From: Flavobacterium sp. HSC-32F16
Lineage (GTDB): Bacteria; Bacteroidota; Bacteroidia; Flavobacteriales; Flavobacteriaceae
NCBI RefSeq assembly: GCF_024171645.1
Contig: NZ_JALKAC010000012.1
Span: 62,001-126,000 of the forward strand
Reading direction: 5' to 3'
Length of the DNA stretch: 64,000 nt
A model generated the notes under the pieces. It had not been told where the DNA came from. It searched no databases and saw nothing but the letters and a program-made list of their open reading frames with translations. The position numbers and the translations under genes are program-made. Shown here piece after piece: positions 29,524 to 52,057 of the stretch (its first letter is position 1; the number at the start of each line of letters is the position of its first letter).

Positions 29524-30435
29524 ATGAAAAAAATAGTTTTAGTTTTATTGTTTTGTTCTGCCGTGAGTTTCGCACAGCAGGATGCGCAGTTTACACAATA
29601 TATGCACAATACCATTAATATAAATCCTGCTTACGCTGGTTCAAGAGGAGCTATGAGTATTTTTGGATTATATCGTACACAATGGGTTGGACTTGACGGT
29701 GCGCCCGAAACGAGTACTTTATCATTAAATACACCAATAAATAACAGCAATGTAGGATTGGGACTTTCATTGGTTAATGATAAAATCGGGCCGACAACCG
29801 AGAATAACATTTCAGTAGATTTCTCTTATTCCATTCAAACATCTGCGACAGCAAAACTTTCATTTGGTATTAAAGGATCGGCTAATATTTTTAACCTTGA
29901 TCCCAATAAATTAACGCCGGAACATCAGGGAGATCCACAATTTTCTGACTTTAAAAATAAGTTTACACCAAACGTTGGAGCAGGGGTTTATTGGCATTCA
30001 GATAAAGGATATGTAGGATTGTCTGTGCCTAACTTCATTCAAACCAATCGTTATGATGATAATGATACGGCCATATTTAAAGAACAGATCAACTATTACT
30101 TAATTGCAGGTTACGTTTTCAATTTAGATCGTTACGAAATGATCAAATTCAAACCTGCAGTTTTAGCTAAAATGGTCGAAGGTTCACCGCTTCAGGTAGA
30201 TGCTTCAGCAAACTTTATGTTCAACGACAAATTTGTTGTGGGAGTTTCTTATAGATGGAGCGCAGCGTTAAGCGCATTGGCAGGATTTCAAATCAACAAA
30301 AACATGTACATTGGATATGCTTATGACAGAGAAACAACGAAGTTAAATAATTACAATTCGGGTTCGCATGAAATCTTCCTGCGTTATGAGTTCTTAAATA
30401 ATTACAGCCGAATTACATCACCAAGATTTTTCTAA
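29524..30435 (+). CDS. PorP/SprF family T9SS outer-membrane protein
   Basis: A 303-residue protein with signal peptide (MKKIVLVLLFCSAVSFAQQ) and the family start QFTQYMHNTININPAYAGSR, then FGLYRTQWVGLDGAPETSTL. The remainder alternates beta strands of a 14-strand-type barrel and ends in an aromatic residue (RFF). PorP/SprF proteins are needed for secretion or surface attachment of type B CTD proteins, and many are encoded right after their cognate substrate, as here. Pairs with the 3021-residue adhesin upstream and the OmpA-like protein 2 bp downstream. Confidence 0.93.
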   Translation: MKKIVLVLLFCSAVSFAQQDAQFTQYMHNTININPAYAGSRGAMSIFGLYRTQWVGLDGAPETSTLSLNTPINNSNVGLGLSLVNDKIGPTTENNISVDFSYSIQTSATAKLSFGIKGSANIFNLDPNKLTPEHQGDPQFSDFKNKFTPNVGAGVYWHSDKGYVGLSVPNFIQTNRYDDNDTAIFKEQINYYLIAGYVFNLDRYEMIKFKPAVLAKMVEGSPLQVDASANFMFNDKFVVGVSYRWSAALSALAGFQINKNMYIGYAYDRETTKLNNYNSGSHEIFLRYEFLNNYSRITSPRFF

Positions 30436-34275: not shown

Positions 34276-34578
34276 TAATTTTTTTATCTAAAATTAATGC
34301 CTGCAGCGTTTATGAAATTTCCTTTGTAGTATAAAGATTATACGATAAAAAAAGCAACCTAAATTTCAGTAAAATTTTTTGTAAGTTTAGTTGTTGCCTC
34401 AATAGATAAAAGAAAATTATTCTTAACAATAATTATCAAATAAAAGAAAACTGTAATCCTTTTTTTGAGTTTTGATAATTTTTTATATTGTTTGAAATAA
34501 TTATGAAAAATTAATTGAAAATTTTTGAAATTCTTTAGATTTGTACATAAAACAAGTCTTAAAGCGGAAGAATCTTCA
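34276..34578 (+). promoter_or_regulatory. Intergenic region with promoter of the ECF sigma gene
   Basis: Very AT-rich with no gene. It holds the promoter TTG (34515-34517), an 18-nt spacer and TAGATTTG (34536-34543), which matches the Flavobacterium -33/-7 arrangement, followed by a leader of about 30 nt. No terminator with a T-run is obvious for the upstream lipoprotein gene. Confidence 0.65.
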
Positions 34579-35121
34579 ATGAAGAATGAAAAGAGGGACA
34601 TAGATTTATGGAGTCAAATAAAAAAAGGAGATGTTCAGGCTTATCATGAACTATATGATCGCTATATAAATATACTTTTTACGTTTGGAATGCAATACAC
34701 TAATGACGAAACTTTAGTGCAGGACGCCATACATGATATTTTTGTTGATCTTCACCGTTACCGGACAACAATAGCTTCAGATGTTGTGGTGAAATCTTAT
34801 CTTTTTAAATCACTTCGAAATGACATTTTCAAGAAACTAAAATCGCAGACCAAAATTGTACATCTCGATATTGTTTCAGAAGGAACTTATAAAACAGATT
34901 CAGCCGAAGATGAATTAATTGTCAGCGAAACTGCCTTAAATAAAAATGCCAGTTTAGCTTTGGCTTTATCTTCACTTACCCAAAAACAGCGTTACGCACT
35001 TCACCTTCGTTTTAGTGAAGATTTATCTTATGAGGAAATTTCTTCTACTTTAGAAATTAGCCTGGAATCAAGCAGAACCTTGATTTACAGGTCTTTAAAA
35101 GAACTTCGCGCTAAGCTTTAA
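34579..35121 (+). CDS. ECF-type RNA polymerase sigma factor
   Basis: A 180-residue protein from ATG 34579 (the in-frame TTG at 34525 lies before the promoter box and is rejected). Region 2 is AYHELYDRYINILFTFGMQY with LVQDAIHDIFVDLHRYR; region 4 is LSSLTQKQRYALHLRFSEDL with SYEEISSTLEISLESSRTLI. The adjacent FecR-like anti-sigma and STN-containing SusC define a cell-surface signalling set: substrate at the outer-membrane receptor signals through FecR to free this sigma factor, which then drives the susCD operon. Confidence 0.92.
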   Translation: MKNEKRDIDLWSQIKKGDVQAYHELYDRYINILFTFGMQYTNDETLVQDAIHDIFVDLHRYRTTIASDVVVKSYLFKSLRNDIFKKLKSQTKIVHLDIVSEGTYKTDSAEDELIVSETALNKNASLALALSSLTQKQRYALHLRFSEDLSYEEISSTLEISLESSRTLIYRSLKELRAKL

Positions 35122-35209
35122 AAAAACTTTAAAAAAACATTAATTTTCTTGTCTATGTTTTTGTCTTTTGATTCTTATAGTACTATAGAGAATCTAAAAG
35201 AAAAATATT

Positions 35210-36262
35210 TTGTACCCAAATTTCAAAATTTTACCAGAAAAAGATAAAACGAATCTAAAAGCAAGAATCGCAGAAAGCATTGCATTAGAAAAACAGCAGG
35301 CCAGAAGAAAAAGGCTTCGTACAATTTCCTGGAGTGCTGCGGCAGTACTTTGTATAGGCTTGGGAGTTATGGTTGTTCTAAAACAAGAACAAAAAGTAGT
35401 AAGCCCAATCGAAAAATTTGCAAAAAGCAATGAAAAAGAGACTTTTTTCGAAAAAAGCGGGCAAGTTCAATTGGTATTATCCAATCAGGAAGCTGTTAAT
35501 GTCAGCGACAGCACAACGATTGCTTACAACGCATCTGGAAATAAAATTAACGTAAACAGTAAACAAATAGAGCAGAAAAAAACTCTTGAAACACAATACA
35601 ACACAGTTTTAGTTCCTTACGGAAAAAGAGCACAGTTGAGTCTGGCAGATGGAACTCAGGTTTGGCTGAATTCAGGATCAAAGCTGATTTATCCAACAGC
35701 TTTTAGCAGCACATCGAGAGAAGTATATTTAGAAGGAGAAGGCATTTTTGACGTAGCGCATAATGAAGCAAAACCTTTTTATGTAAAAGCAGCAAACCAT
35801 TACAGCGTGCGTGTATTAGGAACCTTGTTTAATGTAAGCTGTTATACCAAAGATGCCAAAGTTTCGACAGCATTGTTAAGAGGAAAAGTGCAGGTTTCTT
35901 ATGCTAAAAAAGGTCTTTTTAGTGCAGATACGCTTCAAACCATTCTAAAACCGGGAATGATTGCCGCTCTGGATAAAAAACGTGAAACTATTAAAACCAC
36001 AACACAAAATGTTGAGTCTTTGTTTTCATGGAGAAAAGGATATTACGAATTCTCTCAGGAAAAACTTCCGTTGGTTTTAGACAAATTAACGCGCTATTAC
36101 AATGTTGATTTTGTAATGAATAAAAAAGCAAGTCCCACAGAAACTTATTCGGGAGCTTTTAAACTTAATGATGATTTAGAAAAAGTGGTAAAAACATTAG
36201 AAGCCACTACAGGTCTCGAATTCGTTTACGATGCCGAAACTAGAAAAATAACTATTAACTAA
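35210..36262 (+). CDS. FecR family anti-sigma factor (TTG start)
   Basis: A 350-residue inner-membrane protein. The cytoplasmic N-terminal about 40 residues are followed by one TM helix (WSAAAVLCIGLGVMVVL), then a periplasmic FecR domain (VPYGKRAQLSLADGTQVWLN, YLEGEGIFDVAHNEAKPFYV, VRVLGTLFNVSCY) and a C-terminal DUF4974-like STN-binding domain (LDKLTRYYNVDFVMNKKASP). The start is TTG at 35210: an in-frame TAA at 35195-35197 and no ATG before the TM leave it as the only good start. FecR holds the ECF sigma factor until the STN domain of the SusC protein signals substrate. Confidence 0.9.
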   Translation: MYPNFKILPEKDKTNLKARIAESIALEKQQARRKRLRTISWSAAAVLCIGLGVMVVLKQEQKVVSPIEKFAKSNEKETFFEKSGQVQLVLSNQEAVNVSDSTTIAYNASGNKINVNSKQIEQKKTLETQYNTVLVPYGKRAQLSLADGTQVWLNSGSKLIYPTAFSSTSREVYLEGEGIFDVAHNEAKPFYVKAANHYSVRVLGTLFNVSCYTKDAKVSTALLRGKVQVSYAKKGLFSADTLQTILKPGMIAALDKKRETIKTTTQNVESLFSWRKGYYEFSQEKLPLVLDKLTRYYNVDFVMNKKASPTETYSGAFKLNDDLEKVVKTLEATTGLEFVYDAETRKITIN

Positions 36263-36424
36263 GTATAAACGACTAAAAATTAGAAATGCCTATGATATAA
36301 AATAAAATTTGAAAATAAAGTAATCTAACCAGACCAAAAAAAAACCAAAAGATGCTCGAACATCTCTTGGCTTATGTAAAATTTTAATTGCGTCTGCAAT
36401 TATTGAAATAACTAAAACAAAATT

Positions 36425-39400
36425 ATGAATAAAAATCATGATATAGGCCTGCTATTGCCTAAAAAAATCATCAACCTTACTTTTATTTTAATTATGAGAG
36501 TATTCATTTTAGTTCTGTATTTAGGATTAACCAGTATTTACGCTAATAGTGCCAAAGCACAAAATGAAATCTCAGTAAAGGTTCAGGGAGCTTCTTTGCA
36601 AACTCTTTTTACAACCATTCAGCAGAAAAGCGATTACGTGTTTTTTTACAACGATGATTTATTGTCTTCTGCAAAAAAAGTAAGTTTAAACCAATACGCT
36701 ACCGTTCCTGAAATCTTAAACACTGCTTTGTCAAATACAGGATTAACCTATACTATTATTGACAAACAAATTGTGATCAAAAAAAGTAAAAAGGTAAAAC
36801 AAGAACAACAACAGGAATTTGAAGTAACAGGAATTGTTACAGATAAAAGCGGTAATCCTTTAGTAGGAGTAAATGTTTTAATAAAAGGAAAACAATCCTG
36901 GGATATTACACGTGAAAAAGGAGATTACAGAATTGCAGTTACAGCTTCAGACTCACTTCGATTTGAATATTTAGGCTACAAAACTAAAACAGTTGGCGTA
37001 AATAATAAAAGAGTAATTAATGTTATCCTGACACCAGATGTTATGGAACTTACAGGCGTGGCAATTGCAGCTTCAAATGGGTATACCGATATTCCTAAAG
37101 AAAGAATAACCGGAGCTTTTGAAGTTATTGGGGCCAAAGAACTAGCCGAAGTTCCAACAGTTGACATTCAGTCAAGACTTGAGGGTAAAATGGCCGGAGT
37201 AAACGTAGATCCAAGAACAGGTTCAATAACCATAAGAGGAACAAACAGCTACAGCGGTGTAGGATCGCCTTTAATTGTAATTGATGGTTTTCCGCAGTCT
37301 GAAAACGATTTTAAATTTAGTAAAAGAGGCGTTTCTGGTTCTTCGATTTTAAGTTACCTTAATCCTGATGATATTGAAAGTATTACCGTTTTAAAAGATG
37401 CTGCAGCAAGTTCTATCTGGGGTTCACGCGCTGCCAACGGAGTAGTGGTTGTAGTGACAAAAAAAGGTAAAAAAGCAGAACCAACAATCAGTTTCAGCAC
37501 CACAACTACAATTGGCGAGAAAATGGATTTAGGAAAACTGCGCGTAATGAACACCGCTCAATATGTTGACTACGAAAAAGATTTAGTTGCCGGCGGATTT
37601 GTGTCAGATGATATCAGCAACTGGCAGGCTAAAAATCCCAGTGCAGCTCAGGAAATCATGTTCAGACAAAACAGAGGCGAAATTTCTATTGCAGAAAGAG
37701 ATCAGTTATTAAACCAATTATCTCAAAATGACAATCTGGGGCAGATCAATAAATATTTGTTAAGAAATTCTGCTACAACACAATACGATTTATCGGTAAG
37801 CGGCGGAAGCGATAAAAGCACATATTACTTGTCTTTAGGATATAATAAAGATCAGGCAGCAATGAGAGGAAATGAATCTCAGTCGTATAATATTACGTTG
37901 AACAATTCTTTTCAGCTAAAAAGCTTTTTAAAATTAAATACAGGATTTAATTACGTTTCATCAAACTATCAGGTAAATAATACAGCAAACGAAGCCTTAT
38001 CAAACGTATCCAGTTTTGCGCTTCGTCCGTATGATATGATTGCAGATGCAAACGGAAAAGGTATTGACCGTTACATTATTTTTAGACCAGAAGTTGCAAA
38101 AGATTTTGAATCACAAGGATATCTGCCTTGGTCTTACAATTATTTAGACGAATTAAATTATTCTAATGTAATAACAAAAGGTTCCAACATTCGATTAAAT
38201 GCCAGCTTAACCGCAACCGTTACCAATTGGTTAAATTTTGAAGCATCAGGAATGTACACTTCAATCGCAAATAAAACCAAATCTTTAAGCGAACTGGACA
38301 GTTATTATGCAAGAAACATGATTAACGAAGCCACATCTGTAGATACAGCAGGGAAATTAGTATACGGTGTTCCGGTTGGTTCATATTTGTACAATACAAT
38401 ATCAGATAATAATTCGCAGAGTATGCGTATTCAAATGAATATCAATAAAAATTTCAATGACAATAACAGTCTGCACTTTTTAGCCGGTTCAGAAATTAGA
38501 GAAGAACGCAGAGAAGGTTCAAGCCAGAGATTTTACGGATATAATATGGATACCAATTCAGGGCAGTCAGTAAATCCAACTGTTTATTATACTACAGTTT
38601 ATGGATGGCAGAATATAATTGGAACTTCTGACAACAGCATCAGTAAATACAGAGACCGTTATTTATCGTATTACGGATTAGGTTCTTATGATTTTAAAAA
38701 CAGATACCATTTATCTTCAAGTATTCGTTTTGACGATTATAACTTACTAGGAGCTTCAAGAAAAAACAGAGCTCTTCCATTATGGTCTGTTGGTACGAAA
38801 TGGGATGTAAACAAAGAATTTTTCTTAAGAAATGTAAGCTGGTTAAACGACTTGGCATTCAGAATTACTTATGGTAAAGCAGGAAGTGCGCCCGGAGGCG
38901 GTTTCGGAAGCCAGAGTGCTGTTATTGGTGTAGGATCAGTTGATTACAACACACAATTGCCAACAGCTTATATTTCAGTTCCGGAAAATCCTCAGATTAA
39001 ATGGGAAACAACATCAACCTTAAACTTTGGTTTAGATTACGCTGTTTTTAATAATCGCTTACGCGGAAATGCCGATTTGTATTATAAAAAGTCAAAAGAT
39101 ATTTTAACCAATCTGCCTTTTAACCCAACAACAGGATGGGGATATCTAAACTACAATACGGGAACACTAGAAGGGCACGGAGTCGATTTAAATATTGCCG
39201 GAACTATTATAAATACCGCTTTTAAATGGAACAGCAGTTTTAATATTTCATACAATACAAACGAAGTTACAGATTCCCGTTTTACAGCTACAACTACAAA
39301 TCAATATTTATCTGGTGTTACTACATTAGGTAAACCTATTGGATATCTGTATGCTTATAAGTGGGCAGGATTAGATGCAAATGGTCAGTCTACGGTTTAT

Positions 39401-39991
39401 AAAAAAGACGGTACGATTGTCGACTCAAATCAAGGAATTGCAACGATTGATAAAGATGATTTAAAATACATGGGAACTACATTTGCTCCCTATTTTGGAG
39501 GGTTTATGAACGACTTCTCATATAAAAATTTCAGACTTGGAGTGCAGATTACCTATTATGCAGGCCACGTATTTAGAAATACAGTATTGCAGAATTATCC
39601 TTCTTACACAGGAGTACAATATGGCGCTGTAGCGAAGGACGAACTTATTGCCAGCCGATGGAGACAAGCCGGAGACGAAGCGACTACAAATGTTCCTGGT
39701 TTAGCTAACATTAGTTACAACAGTTTGAATCGTTATCAAAATGCAGACATCAACGTACTGCCGGCGGATAACGTAAGATTACAGCAGGTTTCATTAAGCT
39801 ATAATGTGCCAAGTCAATGGTTAGAAAAAACTTTTATAAGATCATTGAGTTTCAATTTAGCGGCGAGAAATTTAGGATTATTGTGGGTTAAGAATGACTT
39901 AGGCATCGATCCGCAATACTTATCAAATGGAAATTATAATACACTTGCACCGCAGCGTAATTATACTTTACAGTTTAATTGTAGTTTTTAA
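36425..39991 (+). CDS. SusC/RagA family TonB-linked outer-membrane transporter with STN domain
   Basis: A 1188-residue protein: long signal peptide (MRVFILVLYLGLTSIYANS region), STN/secretin signalling domain (about 45-120, ISVKVQGASLQTLFTTIQQK), CarboxypepD-reg-like domain (FEVTGIVTDKSGNPLVGVNV), plug (DIQSRLEGKMAGVNVDPRTG, SPLIVIDGFP, SITVLKDAAASSIWGSRAAN) and a 22-strand barrel ending in YTLQFNCSF. It imports large ligands, oligosaccharides or peptides, using TonB energy with the SusD lid of the next gene. The STN domain talks to FecR. Followed 18 bp later by susD. Confidence 0.94.
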   Translation: MNKNHDIGLLLPKKIINLTFILIMRVFILVLYLGLTSIYANSAKAQNEISVKVQGASLQTLFTTIQQKSDYVFFYNDDLLSSAKKVSLNQYATVPEILNTALSNTGLTYTIIDKQIVIKKSKKVKQEQQQEFEVTGIVTDKSGNPLVGVNVLIKGKQSWDITREKGDYRIAVTASDSLRFEYLGYKTKTVGVNNKRVINVILTPDVMELTGVAIAASNGYTDIPKERITGAFEVIGAKELAEVPTVDIQSRLEGKMAGVNVDPRTGSITIRGTNSYSGVGSPLIVIDGFPQSENDFKFSKRGVSGSSILSYLNPDDIESITVLKDAAASSIWGSRAANGVVVVVTKKGKKAEPTISFSTTTTIGEKMDLGKLRVMNTAQYVDYEKDLVAGGFVSDDISNWQAKNPSAAQEIMFRQNRGEISIAERDQLLNQLSQNDNLGQINKYLLRNSATTQYDLSVSGGSDKSTYYLSLGYNKDQAAMRGNESQSYNITLNNSFQLKSFLKLNTGFNYVSSNYQVNNTANEALSNVSSFALRPYDMIADANGKGIDRYIIFRPEVAKDFESQGYLPWSYNYLDELNYSNVITKGSNIRLNASLTATVTNWLNFEASGMYTSIANKTKSLSELDSYYARNMINEATSVDTAGKLVYGVPVGSYLYNTISDNNSQSMRIQMNINKNFNDNNSLHFLAGSEIREERREGSSQRFYGYNMDTNSGQSVNPTVYYTTVYGWQNIIGTSDNSISKYRDRYLSYYGLGSYDFKNRYHLSSSIRFDDYNLLGASRKNRALPLWSVGTKWDVNKEFFLRNVSWLNDLAFRITYGKAGSAPGGGFGSQSAVIGVGSVDYNTQLPTAYISVPENPQIKWETTSTLNFGLDYAVFNNRLRGNADLYYKKSKDILTNLPFNPTTGWGYLNYNTGTLEGHGVDLNIAGTIINTAFKWNSSFNISYNTNEVTDSRFTATTTNQYLSGVTTLGKPIGYLYAYKWAGLDANGQSTVYKKDGTIVDSNQGIATIDKDDLKYMGTTFAPYFGGFMNDFSYKNFRLGVQITYYAGHVFRNTVLQNYPSYTGVQYGAVAKDELIASRWRQAGDEATTNVPGLANISYNSLNRYQNADINVLPADNVRLQQVSLSYNVPSQWLEKTFIRSLSFNLAARNLGLLWVKNDLGIDPQYLSNGNYNTLAPQRNYTLQFNCSF

Positions 39992-40009
39992 TTTTAAAAA
40001 ACAGATTTT

Positions 40010-41365
40010 ATGAAATTTCTAAAATTCACACTATATATTTTCCTGCCGGTACTTTTATTAAACTCTTGTAGAGATTATGTTGAAGTAGAACCGGTTGGAA
40101 ACAACAGAATCTTAAAATATACTTCTGACTACAGAGGTTTGGCTAACAATTACACCGATATGACGGCTTCTGGAGGAATTTATCTTTTGGCTAATGCCGA
40201 TGCCGAATTTCCAACAGCCTATCAAAACGGAGTTAGCACAATTTATAGTAACAGTTATACCTGGCAGGACAAAATATACGATCCTTCACAAGGCGATTCA
40301 GACTGGATTGGTTTGTATAAAGCAGTGTATTACAGCAACGTAATTCTAAATGGAGTTATGGGAAGCGAAAAAGGAACAGATGCAGAAAAAAAGGAAATTT
40401 ATGCCGAAGCCTTTGTACACAGAGCTTTCGCTTACCTGCAATTGGTAAATACTTACGGACCGCAGTTTAATCCTGCTTCTGCCAATTCAGAAAAAGCTGT
40501 TCCGTTATTATTAAAACCAGAATTGTTTTCTTCTCTGGAAAGAAGTACAGTAGGGCAGGTGTACGACCAGATTATTTCAGATTTAAAAGATGCATTAGTC
40601 AATGATATCCAAGACACACCTCAGTTTAATGTACTGCCTTCAAAAATAGCAGTTTATGCATTGCTGGCCAGAACTTATTTATATATGGGATCTTATGAGT
40701 TGAGTTTAGAAAATGCAGAAAAAGCACTTGCAATGCAAAACGGTTTAATTGACCTAAACAGTTTTGCAACAGGATTTAGCTATCCCGTTCTAATTCAGAA
40801 TCCAGAAGTTATATTCTCAAAAACATTATTAAACGGTTATGTTGGTATTCCTTTGGCAAATGATTTATTAAGCAGTTTCGAAACCAGCGATTTACGTTAC
40901 AATTATTATACAATGGCAGGAACAAATTTCTTTCCAACTTATACCGGAAGAGGTTTTGGAATACCAAGATACAGCCAGACAACAGGAATCAACGTTGGAG
41001 TATCAGTTCCTGAAATGTATTTAATTGCTGCCGAATGTTATGCCAGATTAGGACAGACCCAAAAAGCAGTAGACAATTTAAATATCGTAAGAGCCAAAAG
41101 ATATAAATCAGGAGAAGCCTATCAGGTTTCGGCTTCAACAAGCAAAGAAGCATTGGATTTAGCTTTAGTAGAAAGACAAAAAGAATTTATAGGAAGAGGA
41201 TTCCGCTGGTTCGATCAAAAAAGATTAAATCTTGATCCTGCTTATCAAAAAACATATACCCGGGTTTTTAAAGGACAAACCTATACTTTGGCGCCAAACA
41301 GCGATGGATATGTATTTCCAATCAATCAAAATTACATCGATTTAAACCCTGAATTAGGGAAATAA
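40010..41365 (+). CDS. SusD/RagB family substrate-binding lipoprotein
   Basis: A 451-residue lipoprotein (signal MKFLKFTLYIFLPVLLLNSC) with the SusD TPR-rich fold: AFVHRAFAYLQLVNTYGPQF, KIAVYALLARTYLYMGSYEL, MYLIAAECYARLGQTQKAVD, RQKEFIGRGFRWFDQKRLN and the C-terminal FPINQNYIDLNPEL. It forms the surface lid of the SusC transporter and helps choose the substrate. Because peptidases rather than glycoside hydrolases follow it, a peptide ligand is the best guess. Confidence 0.93.
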   Translation: MKFLKFTLYIFLPVLLLNSCRDYVEVEPVGNNRILKYTSDYRGLANNYTDMTASGGIYLLANADAEFPTAYQNGVSTIYSNSYTWQDKIYDPSQGDSDWIGLYKAVYYSNVILNGVMGSEKGTDAEKKEIYAEAFVHRAFAYLQLVNTYGPQFNPASANSEKAVPLLLKPELFSSLERSTVGQVYDQIISDLKDALVNDIQDTPQFNVLPSKIAVYALLARTYLYMGSYELSLENAEKALAMQNGLIDLNSFATGFSYPVLIQNPEVIFSKTLLNGYVGIPLANDLLSSFETSDLRYNYYTMAGTNFFPTYTGRGFGIPRYSQTTGINVGVSVPEMYLIAAECYARLGQTQKAVDNLNIVRAKRYKSGEAYQVSASTSKEALDLALVERQKEFIGRGFRWFDQKRLNLDPAYQKTYTRVFKGQTYTLAPNSDGYVFPINQNYIDLNPELGK

Positions 41366-41376
41366 AAAACACTGCA

Positions 41377-43356
41377 ATGTTAAAAAAAATAATAAATATC
41401 AAATTAATGGTATTGGTATTTTGTGCCTTTACCTTACAAGTTACATGTCAGGAAACAAAGCTGAGATTAACCGGAATGGCAGATATTCCCATTCCGGGCG
41501 CAGTTTTAAACATGACCTATGATGCTAAAGGCGGACCACTCGAAAACATAAAAGAAATTAACGGTTATGCCTATGTTTTTAATGATTACAGATGGGAAAT
41601 CGAAGATCTTAAAATGAAAAAAAATGGAGCTGTTTACAGCGCCGATTTTACAGTTCCAAAAAATTGTGCTTTTATGGCCTTCAAATTTTATGGCAATACA
41701 GAAAACGGTATTATTACTGATACTGGTCAAGATAACGGATATCTTTTGGTAGTTTTTAAAGAGCCAAAAGTAAAAATGCCGGGAGCAGATTTGGCTTGGG
41801 CAACCTTTAGAAACAAAGATTTTAACGGTCAGTTTGGGGGTTACTTCAAAGATTTTACAATCAACGGAGATGCTACGGAATATTGGTTAAAGAAAGAAGT
41901 AGCAGATAATGGAAACAGGTTTCCTGAATTTTTTGATACCTATTTTAAAGTTTTGAAAGTACAAAAACCGGAGAAATTCCAAGAATTAGGAAGTCGTTTT
42001 CTGGGAGATTTTACCAAAAATATAAAAGGAATGCCGGAAGAAGTTTATCTTAAAGTTCACAACATTTATTTGTATGAATTAAAAGATAAAGCAAAAGCAG
42101 ATTCTATTGAAAACGTAATTGTAAAACAATTTCCAAAAGGTGCTTTTTTAAGATTCAAAGCGTATCAAAAAATTATGCCGATTTCAGATGCCGCAGAAAG
42201 AAACAAAGTTATCGCTCAGTTTTTAACCGATTTTCCATACACTACAGATGTACCGGATTCTCAAAAATATTTCTATGATAACGTTGTAAAAATGCAGTTT
42301 GGATATTACTTTGACACGAAAGATTATAAAAGTGTTTTAGCCTTAATTCCAAACATGAATTTTGCAAACCTAAACGACGCTTATCATCAAAATATTTCAA
42401 AAGCCTTGTACCTAAAAGTGGTAGATCCTGCCGTTATCGAAACAATGGCAGTGCCAATGATTAAACTCATGCAGGAAAAAGTAAATGATTTATCCTATAT
42501 GCAGGGTATTTACTGGTCACCAAATCAGGCGACAGAAAATGCAAAAACACAGTTGAATAACGAATTGGTCATTCAGATTCGTATGTATGATATGCTGAAA
42601 AAATACAAAGAAGTTTTAGAAACTTTTGAATTACTTCCGTTTCAAAAACGCTGCGAAAAAGCCAGTATCAACGATATTCACGTAAGAGCTTTAGAAGCTT
42701 TAAATAAACCAATTATCGACGTTCTAAAAAATGCGGCAAGAGCCAATACTTTATCAGAAGGATTAACCGCAAAACTAAAAGAAGCCTTTTTAAAAGAAGG
42801 AAAAAAAGAAGCTGATTTTTCGGCTTATTTAGAGCAGTTGAAAAAAGAAAACAACTCTGAAGAAAAAATCACTTTAATGAATCCGGTTCCTGCGCCTGCA
42901 ATTAAAGTTCAGAGTGCCGATGGAAAAACAAAAGATTTAGCATTAAACAACGGAAAAATTATAGTAATTGACTTTTGGGCAACCTGGTGCGGTCCTTGTA
43001 AAAAAGCATTTCCGGCGATGCAGCAATTGGTAAACAATTTTAAAGAAGACAAACAAGTCGAGATTTATTTTATAAGTACTCAGGAAACTAAAGAAGGATA
43101 TAAAAAAGAAGCTTTGGCTTACTTGAAAGAAAAAGGTTTAAAGCTTGACACCTATTTTGATTTAATTAAAAAAGGAGGCGGAACAAACAATGCTTCATTT
43201 TCAAATTATGCAGCGATTTTTAAATCAAGCGGGATTCCTAGAAAAGTAGTAATCAAGAACGGGCAGATCAGATTTACATCCGAAGGATATTCAGGAAATC
43301 CAGGTCAGCTTGTAGACGAACTTACCAACGTTATCAATACTTTAAAGAACGAATAA
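41377..43356 (+). CDS. TlpA-like thioredoxin-fold protein with large N-terminal region
   Basis: A 659-residue exported protein (signal KLMVLVFCAFTLQVTC; a lipoprotein is possible but the lipobox is weak). The N-terminal about 110 residues look like a beta sandwich, residues about 150-480 are helical and TPR-like (EVYLKVHNIYLYELKDKAKA), and the C-terminus from about 505 is a thioredoxin domain with an active WCGPC motif (VIDFWATWCGPCKKAFPAMQ). Such TlpA/ResA proteins reduce disulfides in the periplasm. It lies 11 bp after susD and before two peptidases, so reduction of disulfide-bonded peptides before cleavage is a reasonable guess. Confidence 0.88.
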   Translation: MLKKIINIKLMVLVFCAFTLQVTCQETKLRLTGMADIPIPGAVLNMTYDAKGGPLENIKEINGYAYVFNDYRWEIEDLKMKKNGAVYSADFTVPKNCAFMAFKFYGNTENGIITDTGQDNGYLLVVFKEPKVKMPGADLAWATFRNKDFNGQFGGYFKDFTINGDATEYWLKKEVADNGNRFPEFFDTYFKVLKVQKPEKFQELGSRFLGDFTKNIKGMPEEVYLKVHNIYLYELKDKAKADSIENVIVKQFPKGAFLRFKAYQKIMPISDAAERNKVIAQFLTDFPYTTDVPDSQKYFYDNVVKMQFGYYFDTKDYKSVLALIPNMNFANLNDAYHQNISKALYLKVVDPAVIETMAVPMIKLMQEKVNDLSYMQGIYWSPNQATENAKTQLNNELVIQIRMYDMLKKYKEVLETFELLPFQKRCEKASINDIHVRALEALNKPIIDVLKNAARANTLSEGLTAKLKEAFLKEGKKEADFSAYLEQLKKENNSEEKITLMNPVPAPAIKVQSADGKTKDLALNNGKIIVIDFWATWCGPCKKAFPAMQQLVNNFKEDKQVEIYFISTQETKEGYKKEALAYLKEKGLKLDTYFDLIKKGGGTNNASFSNYAAIFKSSGIPRKVVIKNGQIRFTSEGYSGNPGQLVDELTNVINTLKNE

Positions 43357-43380
43357 TTTCTTTTTGAAAAACCAAAAAAT

Positions 43381-45978
43381 ATGAAAAAAGTATTTTTACT
43401 GTGTACACTTGCTTTGAGTGTACACAGTTTATCTGCACAGAAAAAAACAGTTGATGAATCAGCTTACCAAACCTGGAAAAGAATTAACAATAAATCTTTG
43501 TCATATAATGGTAAATGGATGTCATACAGTACCGTATTTCAGGATGAAGAAAAAGAAAACAAAAAACAAATCATTATTCAGGAAGCTCCAAAAGGAAAAC
43601 GTCTGGTACTTGAAAATATCAGTGATTTAAAATTCATCGGAAAAAAAGACTGGATTCAGTACAGCGTAAACGACAGCACCATTTTGCAAAACCTAAAGAC
43701 AGGCGTAAAAAAACTTTGGAAAAGCAAACATTACACCAATGCTCTTGAAGGAACAGATTTTCTATATTATACAAGACCGGAATCTCCAAAGGGAGAATTT
43801 TTCCTGCAGCGTTTAGTTTGTTACAATTTAGAAAGCAATGACAGTGTGTTTGTAAATAACATAAAATCGTCACGTTTTTTAAAGAACAAATCAATTGTTT
43901 ACGTTCAGGTAGAAAAAGATAAAGTATTGCTGAAACAAGGAATTCCGGGAGGAAAACAGCAGACAATTTACAGCGCAAAAGCTTCGGAATTTGGTGATTT
44001 CCAATTAAACGGAAATGAAAGCGGCGGTACTTTTACACTAAAAACCAACAGCAATGCTGATTTTAATATGGTGTATTATTTCAACTTAAACACCAATTCA
44101 GTAACTCCATTATTCAATTACGATGATGTGGTTTTAAATGATCCGGCGTATTCTATTTCAAAAACAGCTTTTGGAGTGGGCGAAAATGCCAATTATATTC
44201 AATTACAGCTTTTTGGAAACACACGTCCGGAGAATACTCAAATACCAAAATCAGGAGTTGAAATCTGGAGATCAAATCAGGGAGCTATGGAACGCAGACA
44301 AGAATTGTTACGCAGTTCTAAAACACTTCCCAGCGAACAAAAGTACCTGTATGATATCAAAAATAAAAAAGTCATTAAACTGGCTTCAAAAGGAGAATTT
44401 GATCAGGTTGCTATACCGGAATCCGGTAATTTTAAAGGCGCTTTTGGATTAGATAAAAAACCGTATGCCGTAGAAGTGGACTGGACTTTTAACGAACGTA
44501 ATGATATTTACTGGATTGATGCTGCAACAGGAAAATCAACTAAAGTATTGACAGGCGTTTTTGGAAGTCCGTCTTGGAATCCGCAGGGAAGTTTTGCCGT
44601 TATGTACGACGAAAAACAAAAAGTCTGGACCATTTTTGACCCTATTTCAATGCAGTTTAAAAATATTTGTTCGCAGATTCCTTACCCGGTTTCAGATGAT
44701 AATGTAGATATGAAATCAGCCAATACAGCTTTTGGAATTGCTGGCTGGTTAAACAACGGAAATACAGTTGTAATTTACGATCAGTTTGATTTGTGGGCTA
44801 TTGACCTTACCAATCAAAATAAAGCCTATTCAATAACGCAGGGTTATGGAAGAAAAAACAAAGTTGAGCTTAGATATGGAGAAGAAGGTTTTATTGGCGA
44901 TTTAGACCAAAGAAAATCAATTTCGTTAATAGGATTTGATACAGAACATAAATCAAAAGGAATTTATAAATTAATCAATAACAGCTCTGTAGCAAAAATA
45001 TTTGCAAACCCGGATTATAATGTAAGAGTTGATGCCGTTTCAGCAGATAACTCAAGTATTTTATTTTCAAAAGAAAGTTATACGATTTTCCCGGATTTAT
45101 GGTGGGGAACTGCAGCTTTTGGTTCACAGCAAAAAATTACCGATGTTAATCCGCAGCAAAAAGAATATGCCTGGGGAACTTCAAAATTATTGACTTGGAA
45201 AAGCTTTAACGGAAAAGAAAATCAAGGAAATCTGTATCTGCCTGATAATTATGACAGCAAAAAAACATATCCGGTAATTGTTCATTTTTACGAAAAACAT
45301 ACCGAAGAATTTAATGCCTTTCAATTACCTGAGGTCAGCACTTCAAACATAAATATTCCAACTTATGTAAGCAGAGGATATATTGTATTTCAGCCGGATG
45401 TTCATTATACATACGGCGATCCCGGAAACAGTGTTTACAATGATGTAGTAAGCGGTGTAGAATATTTAATCTCAAAAGGCATTACCGAAAAAGGTAAAAT
45501 TGGTATTCAGGGACACAGTTTTGGCGGTTACGAAACCTCGTTTCTAACTACAAAAACAGATCTTTTCAGCTGCGCTATTGTAGGTTCCGGAGTAAGTAAT
45601 TTTACGTCTAATTATCCGGTTATGAGATCAAATGGTATTTCGACAATGTTTAAATACGAAGCTGATCAATACCGTATGGGAAGTTCTTTATATGATAACC
45701 TGGACGGATATATTAAAAATTCGCCTCTTTTCTCGGTTAAGAACATTAAAACGCCAATTCTTATTTTTCATAATGATAATGACAGGGCAGTGCCTTATCA
45801 GGAAGGACAGTCTTTATTTTTTGCACTTCGTCGTTTAGGAAAACCAGCTTTATTGGTTAACTATAAAAAAGAAGGACATACTTTAGAAGATGCCGCAAAC
45901 AAAAAGGACTGGACACTCAAAATGCAGCAGTATTTTGATTATTACTTAAAAGGCGAAAACCGCCCGGACTGGATGTAA
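43381..45978 (+). CDS. S9 family (prolyl oligopeptidase-type) serine peptidase
   Basis: An 865-residue exported protein (signal MKKVFLLCTLALSVHSLSAQ). The N-terminal about 600 residues form a degenerate beta-propeller. The C-terminal alpha/beta hydrolase has the S9 triad: Ser713 in GHSFGGY, Asp801 in NDNDRAVP and His833 in EGHTLED, so it should be active. S9 enzymes trim short peptides, often after Pro or Ala; the exact specificity cannot be read. Located between the TlpA-like protein and the M16 peptidase in the SusCD locus. Confidence 0.92.
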   Translation: MKKVFLLCTLALSVHSLSAQKKTVDESAYQTWKRINNKSLSYNGKWMSYSTVFQDEEKENKKQIIIQEAPKGKRLVLENISDLKFIGKKDWIQYSVNDSTILQNLKTGVKKLWKSKHYTNALEGTDFLYYTRPESPKGEFFLQRLVCYNLESNDSVFVNNIKSSRFLKNKSIVYVQVEKDKVLLKQGIPGGKQQTIYSAKASEFGDFQLNGNESGGTFTLKTNSNADFNMVYYFNLNTNSVTPLFNYDDVVLNDPAYSISKTAFGVGENANYIQLQLFGNTRPENTQIPKSGVEIWRSNQGAMERRQELLRSSKTLPSEQKYLYDIKNKKVIKLASKGEFDQVAIPESGNFKGAFGLDKKPYAVEVDWTFNERNDIYWIDAATGKSTKVLTGVFGSPSWNPQGSFAVMYDEKQKVWTIFDPISMQFKNICSQIPYPVSDDNVDMKSANTAFGIAGWLNNGNTVVIYDQFDLWAIDLTNQNKAYSITQGYGRKNKVELRYGEEGFIGDLDQRKSISLIGFDTEHKSKGIYKLINNSSVAKIFANPDYNVRVDAVSADNSSILFSKESYTIFPDLWWGTAAFGSQQKITDVNPQQKEYAWGTSKLLTWKSFNGKENQGNLYLPDNYDSKKTYPVIVHFYEKHTEEFNAFQLPEVSTSNINIPTYVSRGYIVFQPDVHYTYGDPGNSVYNDVVSGVEYLISKGITEKGKIGIQGHSFGGYETSFLTTKTDLFSCAIVGSGVSNFTSNYPVMRSNGISTMFKYEADQYRMGSSLYDNLDGYIKNSPLFSVKNIKTPILIFHNDNDRAVPYQEGQSLFFALRRLGKPALLVNYKKEGHTLEDAANKKDWTLKMQQYFDYYLKGENRPDWM

Positions 45979-46015
45979 TATAAGCCGATACATTTATACA
46001 ACCCAAAGACTGTTA

Positions 46016-46043
46016 TTTGGAGGTCTCTTATGAGACCTTCAAA
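46016..46043 (+). promoter_or_regulatory. Hairpin between S9 and M16 peptidase genes
   Basis: Near-perfect 12-bp stem (46016-46027 / 46032-46043, core AGGTCTC/GAGACCT, one G-U pair) with a TTAT loop and no T-run. A partial terminator or mRNA-stabilising element is possible. Confidence 0.5.
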
Positions 46044-46127
46044 CTAACAGCAGAATTCCCTTATATCATTTTCAAAAATAGAATTCAGAAAAAATCAATC
46101 AAAAAACGAACAATAAATATCAACTAA

Positions 46128-48944
46128 ATGAAAGCAAAAATATTTTTAGCGCATTTTATGATACTGGGTTTAACTCAGGTTTCAGCGCAGTTTAAAACCA
46201 CAATTCCGCTGCGGAAAGAGGTAGTACACGGAACTTTAAATAATGGTATGCAGTATTTTATTCTGCATAACGAATGGCCAAAAGAAAGAGCCGATTTTTA
46301 TTTTGTTCAGAATGTGGGGGCTATTTTAGAAGATGACAATCAAAACGGACTGGCTCATTTTCTGGAACACATGGCTTTTAACGGAACGGAACATTTTAAA
46401 GGAAAAGGCATTATCAATATGCTGGCAAAACACGGCGTTACCTTTGGCCGTGATATAAATGCTTATACAGCTCACGACGAAACGGTTTATAATCTAAGCA
46501 ATGTTCCGGTTAAGAATCCGGTTTTATTAGATTCCTGTTTATATGTTTTACACGATTGGTCTGGTTTTTTATCCTTAAAAGATGCCGAAATTGATGCCGA
46601 AAGAGGTGTAATCCATGAAGAATGGCGCACGAGAAGAAATGCCGATTTAAGAATTGGTTCGCAATTAGAACCGGTACTTTACAACGGTTCAAAATATGGA
46701 AAAAGAGATGTTTTGGGCGATATGGATTTGATTGATAATTTCAAATACAAACAACTAAGAGATTATTATAAAAAATGGTATTTGCCAACTCATCAGGCAG
46801 TAATTGTTGTAGGAGATATTGATCCTGCAAAAATAGAACAGCAGGTGAAAAAAATAATGGGTTCAATTCCTATGCCTTCAAATCCGGCAGAGCGTACTTA
46901 TGAATCCATTCCTGATAATGACAAGCTACTGTATAAATTGGCAGTTGACAAAGAAGCCCAGAAAACGTCAATTACATTTAACTTTAAAAAGAATAAACCG
47001 CTTGTTCAGGATTTAACCGAATTTGGAAACAGCATTGCAGAACAATTGGCTTTGCAAATGATGAACAATCGTTTCAGAGAATATACGATAAATAACGAAA
47101 CCGCTTTATTATCAGCAGGCGTAAGTCATTCGAGTTTAACCCGTTTGTCTTCTTTATTTACTTTGACCGTTAATCCTAAAAACGGAAGATTGCTCGAAGC
47201 TTTCCAGCAGGCTTATACAGAATATGAAAGAGCAATTCAAAATGGATTTACAAAAGAAGAACTCGATCGTGTAAAAGAAAATATGCGTACCGGTTACGAA
47301 AACCAATTAAAGAACAAAGATAAAATTAGTAATGAAAACTGGGCTTCGCAATTGCAAAATTACTTTTTAGAAGCTTCGCCCGTAATGAGTTTAGAAGATG
47401 AAGTTGAATTTGTAAAATCGACTTTGGATAAATTAGATATCAATCAGGTTAATAAACAGTTTCGTACGCTTCCAACAGAGAAAAATCAAATTTTAACGGT
47501 TTCAGGACCGGAAAAGGAAAATGTAACGTATCCATCAGAAACAGAGTATACAACAGTAATTAAAAAAGTAAAAGAGCAAAAACTAGAACCTTATGCAGAA
47601 ACCATTGCTAATGCAGATTTAGTTACAGATAAACTGACGGTAAAACCAATTGCTAAAAAGTTTGAAGTTAAGGGAATTGCAGGCGCAAAAGGATATGTTT
47701 TAGAAAATGGAGCCAAAATTATTATCTATCCAACAAGTTTAGCGCAGGATCAAATTCTGTTTTCGGCTTTCAGTCAGGGCGGGGTTTCGGTATTGCCGGA
47801 GAAAGATTTGCCATCTTCACAAATTGCAACGGTTTTAGCCAAAAATTCAGGATTGGGAGATTTTAAAGTAACTGATCTTCAAAAACAGCTTTCAGGAAAA
47901 ACAGTTAAAGTGAGTCCGTTTATTGGAGAACATTACGAAGGCTTCAGCGGAAGCGCAGTAAAAAAAGATTTAGAAACACTTTTAGAACTGACTTATTTAT
48001 ATTTTAAAAACCCAAGATTTGAAACTCAGGCCTATAAGCGTATCATTGATTATTACAACAATGCGCTTGAAAATGTAAATGAAAACAACAGTAAAATATT
48101 TGGCGATACCATTGCTTTATTAGATACCAATCACAGCAAAAGAACTTTTCTTTTAAGCAAAGAAAACCTAAACCAGCTGAAGTTTGATGATGCTTCTAGA
48201 ATCTATAAAGAACGCATTTCGAATGCCTCAGATTTTACGTTTGTTTTTGTTGGAAATATTGCTGAAAATGACTTGGAAACCATCAACAAATATTTAGGAA
48301 ATCTGGCAGGAAATTCAATGCAGGAAAAATTTACAGATCATAAAATTGGAACTGGAAAAGGATTTGCCAAAGAAAAACTGGTAAGAGAAATGAGCGTTCC
48401 AAAAACCAGTATTTATGTGCATTTGGAAAACAGAAACGCGGCATTTTCAGAGAAAAACCAAATTATGGCGTATATGCTTTCGCAGTTGTTAGACAAACGT
48501 TATTTAGATAAAATCAGAGAAGATGAGGGCGGAAGTTACGGCGTACAAACGCAGAGTTCATTATCTAAAAATCCATCTGCGGTTTTTTCTCTTCGTGTAA
48601 GCTTTGACTGTAATCCTGAGAAAGACAGCAAACTGCTTCAAATTGTATACGAAGAATTGGAAACGATTGTAAAAAATGATGTTTCGGCAAAAGATTTATC
48701 AGATATAAAAGAAGATTTAATAAAAAGCAATCAGCAGAATATCAAATCAAACTCATACTGGATGAACACGATTGTCGATCAGTTAAAAATGGGAGATAAG
48801 TTTGTAAGCAGTAACGAATATGAAAAACTAATTAAAAGTATTTCTGTAAAAGACATTAAAAAATATGCAGGCGAAGTATTGCCAAATGCTGATAAAGTAG
48901 AAGTTGTAATGCAGCCAAAAACAAACGAAAGTGCTTTAAAATAG
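46128..48944 (+). CDS. M16 family zinc metallopeptidase (insulinase/pitrilysin type)
   Basis: A 938-residue exported protein (signal IFLAHFMILGLTQVSAQF). The N-terminal domain has the inverted zinc motif HFLEH (His77, Glu80, His81) in NGLAHFLEHMAFNGT, and the distal Glu region (EIDAERGVIHEEWRTRR). Three further M16-like domains follow; the C-terminal half keeps the fold (SSLSKNPSAVFSLRVSF) without a zinc site, as usual. M16 enzymes degrade peptides up to a few kDa inside a closed chamber. Last gene of the ECF/SusCD/peptidase locus. Confidence 0.92.
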   Translation: MKAKIFLAHFMILGLTQVSAQFKTTIPLRKEVVHGTLNNGMQYFILHNEWPKERADFYFVQNVGAILEDDNQNGLAHFLEHMAFNGTEHFKGKGIINMLAKHGVTFGRDINAYTAHDETVYNLSNVPVKNPVLLDSCLYVLHDWSGFLSLKDAEIDAERGVIHEEWRTRRNADLRIGSQLEPVLYNGSKYGKRDVLGDMDLIDNFKYKQLRDYYKKWYLPTHQAVIVVGDIDPAKIEQQVKKIMGSIPMPSNPAERTYESIPDNDKLLYKLAVDKEAQKTSITFNFKKNKPLVQDLTEFGNSIAEQLALQMMNNRFREYTINNETALLSAGVSHSSLTRLSSLFTLTVNPKNGRLLEAFQQAYTEYERAIQNGFTKEELDRVKENMRTGYENQLKNKDKISNENWASQLQNYFLEASPVMSLEDEVEFVKSTLDKLDINQVNKQFRTLPTEKNQILTVSGPEKENVTYPSETEYTTVIKKVKEQKLEPYAETIANADLVTDKLTVKPIAKKFEVKGIAGAKGYVLENGAKIIIYPTSLAQDQILFSAFSQGGVSVLPEKDLPSSQIATVLAKNSGLGDFKVTDLQKQLSGKTVKVSPFIGEHYEGFSGSAVKKDLETLLELTYLYFKNPRFETQAYKRIIDYYNNALENVNENNSKIFGDTIALLDTNHSKRTFLLSKENLNQLKFDDASRIYKERISNASDFTFVFVGNIAENDLETINKYLGNLAGNSMQEKFTDHKIGTGKGFAKEKLVREMSVPKTSIYVHLENRNAAFSEKNQIMAYMLSQLLDKRYLDKIREDEGGSYGVQTQSSLSKNPSAVFSLRVSFDCNPEKDSKLLQIVYEELETIVKNDVSAKDLSDIKEDLIKSNQQNIKSNSYWMNTIVDQLKMGDKFVSSNEYEKLIKSISVKDIKKYAGEVLPNADKVEVVMQPKTNESALK

Positions 48945-49088: not shown

Positions 49089-49625
49089 TTAATACGGCCA
49101 GAGAACGTGTAAAGGTTTATTCATCCAGGAAAATTTTATAATAGTAAACGAAAATGGAGACCGGTTTATTAAAACATCATAAGCTCTCTTTTCTACCATA
49201 AGTTCCCATTTGTCCGGCTGTTCAATAAGAATCCCGTCCCGCACAAACCAATTTCCTCTAAATCCATCTACAGAGCAGTCGCCAATAGCAGACCAGTATT
49301 GAATTACGGACTGCATCATACCGTTTATTAAATTTTTTTCGCTGTCTGTGATTTCAATTTCATCACAGACTTTATCAATTACAGAAAGTCCGCATAAGAC
49401 CTTAGGAAGCGGTAAATATACTTCGTCTGTATTAGGCAGTCCCGTAACAATGTATTGTAAAAACTTTACGGCCTTTTTTTGATTTTCTACACTTGTAAAT
49501 TGGTTATCTACAGTAAGATGTAGTCTTTCAAAAAGCATTGGGATATAATTATTTATAATTACAACTCCAGCATTCCGTACCGTAATATCATTTTTGGTTG
49601 GAGTCTTCATTTTTAGAACTTCCAT
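49089..49625 (-). CDS. Stand-alone C-terminal domain of contractile-injection-system tape measure protein
   Basis: A 178-residue cytosolic protein. The pattern GVVIINNYIPMLFERLHL, KKAVKFLQYIVTG, LPKVLCGLSVIDKV, LINGMMQSVIQYWSAIGDCS and DGFRGNWFVRDG, then KRAYDVLINRSPFSFTIIKF and SWMNKPLHVLWPY, follows closely the C-terminal domain of 'contractile injection system tape measure' proteins (CIS_TMP), as I remember that family. The normal protein is many hundreds of residues long; here only this domain is present, with a complete start and stop. No sheath, tube or baseplate gene is next to it. It may be an orphan, a regulator or assembly factor, or a truncated copy. The T6SS spike gene lies at the other end of the window. 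Confidence 0.75.
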   Translation of the reverse strand: MEVLKMKTPTKNDITVRNAGVVIINNYIPMLFERLHLTVDNQFTSVENQKKAVKFLQYIVTGLPNTDEVYLPLPKVLCGLSVIDKVCDEIEITDSEKNLINGMMQSVIQYWSAIGDCSVDGFRGNWFVRDGILIEQPDKWELMVEKRAYDVLINRSPFSFTIIKFSWMNKPLHVLWPY

Positions 49626-51445: not shown

Positions 51446-52057
51446 ATGACTACAAATACAAACACTTTATTATCGTCAGATTTTTTAACAGATATAAAAA
51501 CAAAAACCGCAGATTCTCATAAAAAATTAGAAAGCCTTTCAGTTTCTGCTTCTATTTTATCTCCGGATATGAAAATAGAAGATTACGCTCATTATTTAAG
51601 TCTAATGCACGATGTTCATAAAAATACAGAAGAAATTGTTTATCCAATACTTTCGGATATTATTCCAGATTTAGAACAAAGAAAAAAGAAACATCTTATC
51701 GAAGAAGATCTTTTATTTCTCAACCACAATAAAAAGGCTTCATCTGTAGTTTTTGATAGAACAGAGATGAGTGTGCCTTTTGCCTTAGGAGTATTATATG
51801 TTATTGAAGGTTCAAGTCTGGGCGGACGATTTATATTAAAAAATATTGTGAAAAACCCAACGCTTTCGAATGATCAGGGCGTATCGTATTTTAAAGGTTA
51901 CGGAGATAAAACAGGCAGTTATTGGAAAAATTTCCTAAATATGCTTGCAGAGTATGAACAGAATAATAATTTCGCAAATAGTATTATAGAAGGAGCTGTA
52001 TATGCTTTTGATAGTATTTACAATCATTTTGGGAGCATAGAAAAGAATGAAGTTTAA
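51446..52057 (+). CDS. bphO: Biliverdin-producing heme oxygenase
   Basis: A 203-residue all-helical protein. The proximal heme ligand is most likely His25 in TADSHKKLES, and the distal helix has the signature GSSLGGRFI (in VLYVIEGSSLGGRF). Heme oxygenases open heme to biliverdin, the chromophore of bacteriophytochromes. Its last 11 bp overlap the start of the phytochrome gene, a tight bphO-bphP arrangement that supplies chromophore and apoprotein together. Confidence 0.93.
   Translation: MTTNTNTLLSSDFLTDIKTKTADSHKKLESLSVSASILSPDMKIEDYAHYLSLMHDVHKNTEEIVYPILSDIIPDLEQRKKKHLIEEDLLFLNHNKKASSVVFDRTEMSVPFALGVLYVIEGSSLGGRFILKNIVKNPTLSNDQGVSYFKGYGDKTGSYWKNFLNMLAEYEQNNNFANSIIEGAVYAFDSIYNHFGSIEKNEV

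Follow-up and report, generated by a model that had tools for sequence, protein, structure and literature searches.

Genes of the SusC/SusD pair are widely used for counting polysaccharide loci, and the question raised here is what would be taken up by such a locus when a thiol-disulfide protein and two peptidases stand behind the pair in the place of glycosidases. The locus lies in 64,000 nucleotides from Flavobacterium sp. HSC-32F16 (RefSeq assembly GCF_024171645.1, contig NZ_JALKAC010000012.1, positions 62,001 to 126,000; this whole stretch is referred to as the window, and positions are counted within it). An original prediction, made from the sequence alone, had read it as a sigma factor, anti-sigma factor, SusC with an STN domain, SusD, TlpA-like protein, S9 peptidase and M16 peptidase, with no glycosidases. 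All seven genes were recovered in this order on the + strand (34525-48944) with profile matches, and no Pfam carbohydrate-enzyme family was found among the seven, in 13 flanking genes (of which two matched nothing in Pfam) or in a 3021-residue adhesin nearby, eight further genes of the window being outside the scan. In our best reading, to which we give a probability of about 0.6, the locus is a regulated uptake-and-digestion system for a peptide or small protein and a variation on import systems already described; that the substrate contains disulfides is plausible. The features are as follows.

34525..35121, + strand: extracytoplasmic function (ECF) sigma factor, FecI-like, 198 residues from the first TTG (Sigma70_r4_2 38.6 bits, 8e-10; TIGR02937 65 bits over cut-off)
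35210..36262, + strand: FecR-type anti-sigma factor (Pfam FecR 60.6 bits, 2e-16; FecR_C 48.6 bits)
36333..36354, + strand: conserved block of 22 nt, 71-92 nt before the susC start, from an alignment of 10 upstream regions
36425..39991, + strand: SusC/RagA TonB-dependent transporter (STN at residues 71-120, 38.7 bits, 9e-10; Plug 1e-16; TIGR04056 580 bits, cut-off 368)
40010..41365, + strand: SusD/RagB lipoprotein lid (SusD-like_3 95.7 bits, 6e-27; Cys20 ends the signal peptide, by eye)
41377..43356, + strand: TlpA-like thiol-disulfide protein, 659 residues (AhpC-TSA 1e-12; WCGPC)
43381..45978, + strand: S9 peptidase, 865 residues (Peptidase_S9 109.9 bits, 2e-31; signal peptide by eye)
46128..48944, + strand: M16 peptidase, 938 residues, of the single-chain PqqL/FusC kind (Peptidase_M16 5e-24, M16_C 1e-36; signal peptide by eye)

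The evidence that carries this reading is the set of genes that accompanies this branch of SusCD pairs. In a SusD tree of 105 rows (a quick tree without bootstrap, whose rows are not a random sample; its labels, like those of all neighbourhoods, come from home-made profiles, and the M16 genes of L243, L245 and L250 in our locus numbering are uncounted in it under a gap rule), the window fell in a clade of 17 rows (SH-aLRT 99), all of which have FecR, TlpA and a hydrolase of the S9 or S33-like kind (11 and 6, respectively), with M16 in 14 and DsbD in five. Ten of these rows (L109-L115, L122, L123 and L126) had been found through TlpA, L110 and L113 being found again by the SusD profile, in which they themselves are rows; the seven that had not been found in this way (the window, L108 and L202-L206) all have TlpA and a hydrolase as well. 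The SusD profile search, which scored four candidates per genome, matched 40 of 395 genomes at an E-value of 1e-30, and all nine hits above 700 bits have TlpA plus an S9 or S33-like hydrolase, four of them being rows of the profile itself and five new (L202-L206). The 40 SusD-anchored regions gave 35 tree rows (none came from L215, L227, L230, L234 or L236), and L221-L223, L229 and L232 were cut by contig ends. A wider clade of 52 SusD rows (support 98), which includes ButD, has TlpA, DsbD or M16 in 29 of them.

The full seven-gene order recurred in nine orthologous loci (L109-L112, L122, L202 and L204-L206). Among the matches listed, the closest named relative of the locus was Flavobacterium anhuiense (85% identity for the TlpA-like protein), and the closest carriers in our kinship tables belong to the window's genus; as an orthologue of the TlpA-like protein (84-89% identity) was found in only 4 of 72 congeners in a search of 120 genomes, the locus is patchy in the genus. 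Pedobacter sp. ok626 has the order sigma-FecR-SusC-SusD-TlpA-S9, with no M16 in the stretch examined, and TlpA is followed by a shorter S33-like hydrolase in a Sphingobacteriales metagenome-assembled genome, Cellulophaga sp. BC115SP and [Flexibacter] sp. ATCC 35208. The Cellulophaga locus (L125) has DsbD in addition, and is outside the tree because its SusD reads as two frames.

The window's own genome (5.93 Mb) provided a control, as all 44 of its SusC genes over the cut-off were read and 11 of these are preceded by FecR. M16 stands behind 5 of the 11 FecR-linked SusC genes vs 0 of the 33 others (Fisher P 4e-4), and TlpA or DsbD behind 4 of 11 vs 1 of 33 (P 0.01); S9 is not a FecR trait, since it follows 1 of 11 vs 3 of 33. 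When the zone behind SusC was defined as the same strand within 14 kb, about 5% of the strand-specific genome, such zones were found to hold 5 of 8 M16 genes (P 4e-4), 3 of 4 DsbD genes (P 0.004), 4 of the 9 S9 matches above 60 bits (of 19; P 0.008) and 8 of 24 AhpC-TSA genes over the cut-off (P 0.002), where P was computed with the doubled fraction, gene extents are partly rounded and the gene runs read do not include one of the eight AhpC-TSA genes (C1:1330084). Three of the four DsbD genes are less than 2.2 kb from an M16 gene (again with extents partly rounded). Several loci of this genome show related combinations: L108 reads sigma-FecR-SusC-SusD-TlpA-S33-like-DsbD-M16, L107 reads SusCD-TlpA-TlpA-M16-DsbD-cysteine-desulfurase-like, L081 reads SusCD-TlpA-DsbD_N protein-unknown-TlpA-DsbD-desulfurase-like-M16, L092 reads FecR-SusCD-ABC pair-M16, and L085, which has no FecR, reads SusCD-TlpA-M14-S9-desulfurase-like. 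The M16 proteins of L107 and L081 are of a different kind (60 bits to that of the window).

We also noted two recurrent arrangements in these and further loci. In L092 and L242-L245, FecR-SusCD is followed by a likely ABC-2 type transporter (by Pfam for L092 only) and an M16 of the PqqL/FusC type. In L107, L081 and L085, cysteine-desulfurase-like class V pyridoxal phosphate proteins of ~500 residues stand behind SusCD-TlpA and peptidases; those of L107 and L085 scored 147 and 159 bits against the SufS model, below its cut-off of 475, and that of L081 was recognised by its similarity to the L107 protein, so that for these proteins the fold family alone appears safe.

Searches of solved structures linked the transporter pair to one that binds a protein. 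The best matches of SusC, among 11 Protein Data Bank (PDB) sequence matches with E-values of 0.001 or less, were 8ypu/8ypt (270 bits), and that of SusD was 8ypt_A (115 bits), an entry with the title 'Cryo-EM structure of BfUbb-ButCD complex', in which ButCD is from Bacteroides fragilis and BfUbb is a small protein. The SusD predicted model was weak (pLDDT 57.9) and matched 8ypt with a Z-score of 26.0 over 337 aligned residues at 3.7 A; 8ypt was also the top solved match for the SusD proteins of L108 and L107 (90 and 74 bits). ButCD is reportedly the entry route of BfUbb. The accessible parts of two papers call BfUbb a toxin and give no receptor for it (PMC12853789, PMC5705921).

A number of observations weigh against our reading. 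The ButCD orthologue in the window's genome is a separate locus, L097 (302 bits vs 115), whose neighbourhood has no FecR, TlpA, S9 or M16, and in the SusD tree ButD groups with L097 and L233 (support 100), outside the window clade, so that the window SusD is a relative of ButD and not its orthologue; because the ButCD orthologue lacks these enzymes, the kinship to 8ypt favours a protein or peptide cargo only weakly. SusD-profile hits below 290 bits were mixed, and 19 of the 35 SusD-anchored tree rows have no TlpA, DsbD or M16, some of these 19 being truncated at a contig end (16 have at least one of them). FecR-linked SusC genes of the own genome stand without TlpA, DsbD, M16 or S9-type enzymes in six of 11 loci, and the window locus itself has no DsbD. 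M16 was not seen in the stretches examined of L123, L126 and L203 (3 of the 17 clade rows), and, as an S33-like hydrolase takes the place of S9 in six rows, the exact TlpA/S9/M16 set was seen inside Flavobacterium only. Lastly, among 20 M16-anchored neighbourhoods, picked down the match list with loci already collected left out, SusC and SusD were in the same gene run in only six (L242-L245, L250 and L260), all from the window's family; two others (L258 and L261) have SusC and SusD on the opposite strand, and the remaining 12 show none. One of the neighbourhoods without SusCD, L251, has TlpA-M16-DsbD. M16 was accordingly rejected as a general SusCD marker.

On balance, the interpretation in the original prediction is sustained in part. 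A peptide or protein substrate in place of a polysaccharide is supported: the 17 of 17 clade rows with TlpA and a hydrolase, the paralogous loci with DsbD and M16, and the protein-bound SusCD relative speak for it, and the 19 SusD-anchored rows lacking these enzymes speak against it. The same holds for the synteny that the original prediction had expected to recur, as TlpA with a serine hydrolase proved constant in this clade and the full trio did not; M16 and S9 are exchangeable parts and not members of a fixed trio with TlpA. A recurring core of FecR, SusCD, TlpA and a hydrolase, to which M16 and DsbD are optional additions, would give a sequence rule for separating probable peptide or small-protein loci from the others.

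The TlpA-like protein is the member of this core from which reduction would follow. Its AlphaFold model (pLDDT 76.7) has an N-terminal hydrophobic helix, a beta sandwich, an alpha solenoid and a C-terminal thioredoxin domain at residues ~501-659. Both CxxC cysteines are invariant in 13 aligned relatives, the motif being WCGPC in all nine that come from SusCD loci, and in a fold search residues ~496-659 matched TlpA and ResA entries with Z-scores of 14.0-14.8 and the best entry, SdbA, with 15.8, which places the domain with the TlpA/ResA proteins by both its thioredoxin fold and its CxxC. Matches in this search were nearly confined to the thioredoxin domain (the N-terminal part was not folded separately); judged from the model, the beta sandwich and long alpha solenoid could hold the substrate. 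CGPC is the motif of reducing thioredoxins, and DsbD is the inner-membrane electron donor to the periplasm, conveying electrons from cytoplasmic thioredoxin, because of which the recurrence of DsbD in related loci fits a reducing rather than an oxidising role. The window locus would then rely on a DsbD encoded elsewhere. By eye, the N-termini of the TlpA-like, S9 and M16 proteins resemble signal peptides without a conserved lipobox, and Pfam and NCBIfam reported no type IX secretion system (T9SS) signal domain for any of the three; since the four orthologues of the TlpA-like protein have Ser in the place of its Cys close to the signal peptide, the three processing proteins are most simply taken as soluble and periplasmic.

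The sequence of events that we propose is as follows. SusD would close over SusC, and the pair would carry the substrate across the outer membrane with energy from TonB. The STN domain of SusC would report binding to FecR, from which the ECF sigma factor would be freed, so that susC and the genes behind it would be expressed more strongly. In the periplasm the solenoid-thioredoxin protein would reduce the substrate, most likely at disulfides but possibly at a redox cofactor; the opened chain would be cut by the clam-shell M16, and S9 would then trim the fragments. In the layout of the locus SusC and SusD are 18 nt apart, the gaps from SusC to S9 are 11-24 nt (149 nt separate S9 from M16), and the FecI/FecR signalling parts are complete by Pfam, with an ECF sigma factor (region 2 slightly below the Pfam cut-off, 21.9 vs 24), a FecR with its C-terminal domain and a transporter STN. 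A search of positions 30000-52000 with Rfam at gathering thresholds gave no match.

The idea of a sigma/FecR/STN relay gained support from the orthologous loci, which occur in two variants, B (L109-L112, L122, L202 and L204) and A (L205 and L206). The window is 44-49% identical to variant B in the sigma factor, 40-45% in FecR and 44-48% in STN, vs 72-77% in the plug region and 78-90% in the barrel of the same SusC proteins, 83-85% in SusD, 76-93% in TlpA segments and 81-83% in S9 (52% for L110); M16 is 54-55% identical, the drop starting after about residue 150. To variant A it is 62-87% identical in the sigma factor, 68-73% in FecR, 74-81% in STN, 76-79% in the plug and 83-85% in the barrel, with 84% in SusD, 81-91% in TlpA segments, 80-85% in S9 and 83-93% in M16. 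Sigma factor, FecR and STN thus diverge together as a single cassette, which is what a signalling relay would predict, and the greater part of M16 behaves as a separate, variable module. An exchange is at most suggested as the source of this mosaic, four-fold sites being near saturation: their identities to variant B are mostly 40-58% in core segments and mostly 28-46% in flanking ones, with overlap (the L204 sigma factor has 58%, and STN counts are tiny). All 10 orthologous loci carry the 22-nt block before susC without a difference; it is the sole match in the window at three or fewer mismatches, and matched exactly in 9 of 281 collected loci, all nine of them orthologues and none among the other 272; it is possibly a promoter or 5' untranslated region element. 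As a separate observation, the S9 gene of L110 (10515-13109) is the one that is 52% identical to that of the window, its SusC barrel, SusD and TlpA being 83-90% identical, and looks like a replacement or fast change of one module.

The M16 protein brings in the best surviving alternative, iron piracy, in which SusCD would import a small iron-sulfur or haem protein, TlpA and DsbD would reduce it, M16 would cut it and iron would be freed, as by FusA/FusC with ferredoxin. The HxxEH motif at residues 77-81 is intact, with H77, E80 and H81 invariant in eight aligned sequences, and the solved matches were 9ldy ('Peptidase, M16 family') at 538 bits, PqqL at 278 and FusC at 167, with Protease III at only 24; coverage was near full length for PqqL (residues 26-917) and FusC (19-914), which makes PqqL and FusC the nearest characterised proteins and the window protein a single-chain enzyme of their type. 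FecI/FecR systems were originally described for iron, cysteine-desulfurase-like genes occur in three related loci (L107, L081 and L085), and a haem oxygenase gene (51446-52057) lies 2.5 kb past M16, though beside a phytochrome kinase. In addition, redox enzymes beside some FusA relatives have led to the suggestion of reductive release in the accessible text of Grinter et al. (PMC6793856). However, no siderophore, haem or iron-transport genes are among the seven, and FecR alone does not indicate iron, because in 6 of 11 cases in the own genome the SusCD genes behind it have none of these enzymes with them. Across the phylum, M16 proteases of this shape are frequent (found in 111 of 390 genomes at an E-value of 1e-100, the M16 and S9 alignment searches scoring two candidates per genome). 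FusA and YddB were absent among the 11 PDB matches of SusC, which is a SusC by its curated cut-off (no direct comparison with FusA was made). We consider iron piracy unlikely as the function of the locus, an iron-bearing protein or a modified peptide being a possible substrate.

Second among the alternatives, and doubtful as well, is an ordinary glycan or glycopeptide locus whose glycosidases are encoded elsewhere. Most studied SusCD loci serve glycans, and several solved relatives of the window SusD are annotated as sugar binding. The absence of Pfam carbohydrate-enzyme families from the genes and adhesin scanned argues against it, as does the SusD tree, where all 36 rows labelled TlpA, DsbD or M16 fall outside a branch of 23 own-genome rows (support 94; its glycan nature is assumed) out of the genome's 43 SusD rows in all; no TlpA, DsbD or M16 was found in this branch, nor in a further own-genome branch of eight rows (support 100).

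The S9 peptidase has putative catalytic residues Ser713, Asp801 and His833, invariant in eight aligned sequences, and its best solved matches are named S9 family, acylaminoacyl or acyl-peptide hydrolases, with no isopeptidase-named entry among 34 PDB matches. Uptake of a modified or macrocyclic peptide (a ribosomally synthesised and post-translationally modified peptide or antimicrobial peptide) that would be destroyed or catabolised with S9 as a ring-opening hydrolase is the least probable of the alternatives: the best NCBIfam name of S9 is indeed a lasso-peptide isopeptidase model (NF033523), and in sister loci SusCD is accompanied by S9 alone, or by an ABC-2 transporter together with M16, but the score of 77.5 bits is far below the curated cut-off of 400, on which this identity was rejected, and the scan of flanking genes turned up no recognisable peptide-modifying enzyme. 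S9 was likewise rejected as a marker of window-type loci. In 20 chosen S9-anchored neighbourhoods it stands behind SusC in 11 of 11 congeneric and 0 of 9 others; as FecR was not recognised in these neighbourhoods, the S9-anchored SusC loci form a second class in Flavobacterium, SusC-SusD-long S9 with no FecR, TlpA or M16 recognised (L262-L270, L279 and L280, and L094 and L096 of the own genome; no SusD was recognised in L267 and L270).

Returning to a regulated import system for peptides or small proteins, we tentatively speculate that the locus belongs to an unnamed reductive-import class of Bacteroidota, in which SusCD pairs under ECF/FecR/STN control would import folded, disulfide-bonded small proteins or peptides, a DsbD-TlpA relay would open them, M16 and S9 or S33-like enzymes would digest them, and desulfurase-like proteins of some loci would harvest sulfur. 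Its sensor, transporter-TlpA and protease modules would be swapped independently, and such exchange would account for the genome G453, which has copies of both variants (L204 and L206) with similar transporters and unlike sensors. This raises the question of whether disulfide-rich proteins are sulfur and nitrogen sources for these bacteria.

Other features of the window lie outside the locus. A 3021-residue protein (20398-29463) has bacterial Ig/cadherin-like repeats and a CHU_C type IX secretion signal, and is followed by PorP/SprF (29524-30435) and an OmpA-PD40 protein (30438-32399), together a T9SS adhesin cluster. Past the locus, a frame of 178 residues on the - strand (49089-49625) matches only residues 295-463 of 463 of PF19268, a contractile-injection-system tape measure (E-value 1e-55), and looks like an orphan fragment; the haem oxygenase adjoins a phytochrome histidine kinase (51446-54320).

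That SusCD loci can serve peptides is not new, as RagAB of Porphyromonas gingivalis and BT2263-2264 of Bacteroides thetaiotaomicron are oligopeptide pairs (PMC10132118, PMC11817032) and oligopeptide uptake has been predicted in Flavobacterium. The window pair shares the barrel-and-lid arrangement with these peptide carriers; SusC aligns to RagA at 219 bits, SusD to RagB at only 28, and neither a FecR relay nor a dedicated TlpA-S9-M16 set is mentioned for them in the accessible descriptions. ButCD is the top solved match for both proteins and differs in its surroundings, as seen in L097. Within the genus, SusCD loci proposed for oligopeptides are TRV642_0198-0209 of F. collinsii, with S9, S37, M24 and M43 peptidases (PMC10132118), and THC0290_2100/2101 of F. 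psychrophilum, expressed with a collagenase and Dcp2 (PMC9723704); the former shares S9 with the window, and the accessible text mentions neither TlpA nor M16 for either. Our literature search, with most subscription papers outside its scope, found among the matches listed no description of a SusCD-TlpA-M16 locus, nor of the combination of SusCD with TlpA, DsbD and a PqqL/FusC-type M16 controlled by FecR. The Fus systems (FusA-FusC and YddB-PqqL) are like the window in that a TonB-dependent transporter adjoins a single-chain periplasmic M16 protease; FusC digests imported ferredoxin (PMC12731061, PMC6793856), and pairings of a transporter with an M16 have been described from Proteobacteria, the group that the accessible part of the survey reports, as widespread systems of protease-associated import (PMC6793856). 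The window differs in having SusCD in the place of FusA, a sigma/FecR/STN relay, and an added thioredoxin and S9, and our reading would carry the idea of protease-associated import from Proteobacteria over to the SusCD systems.

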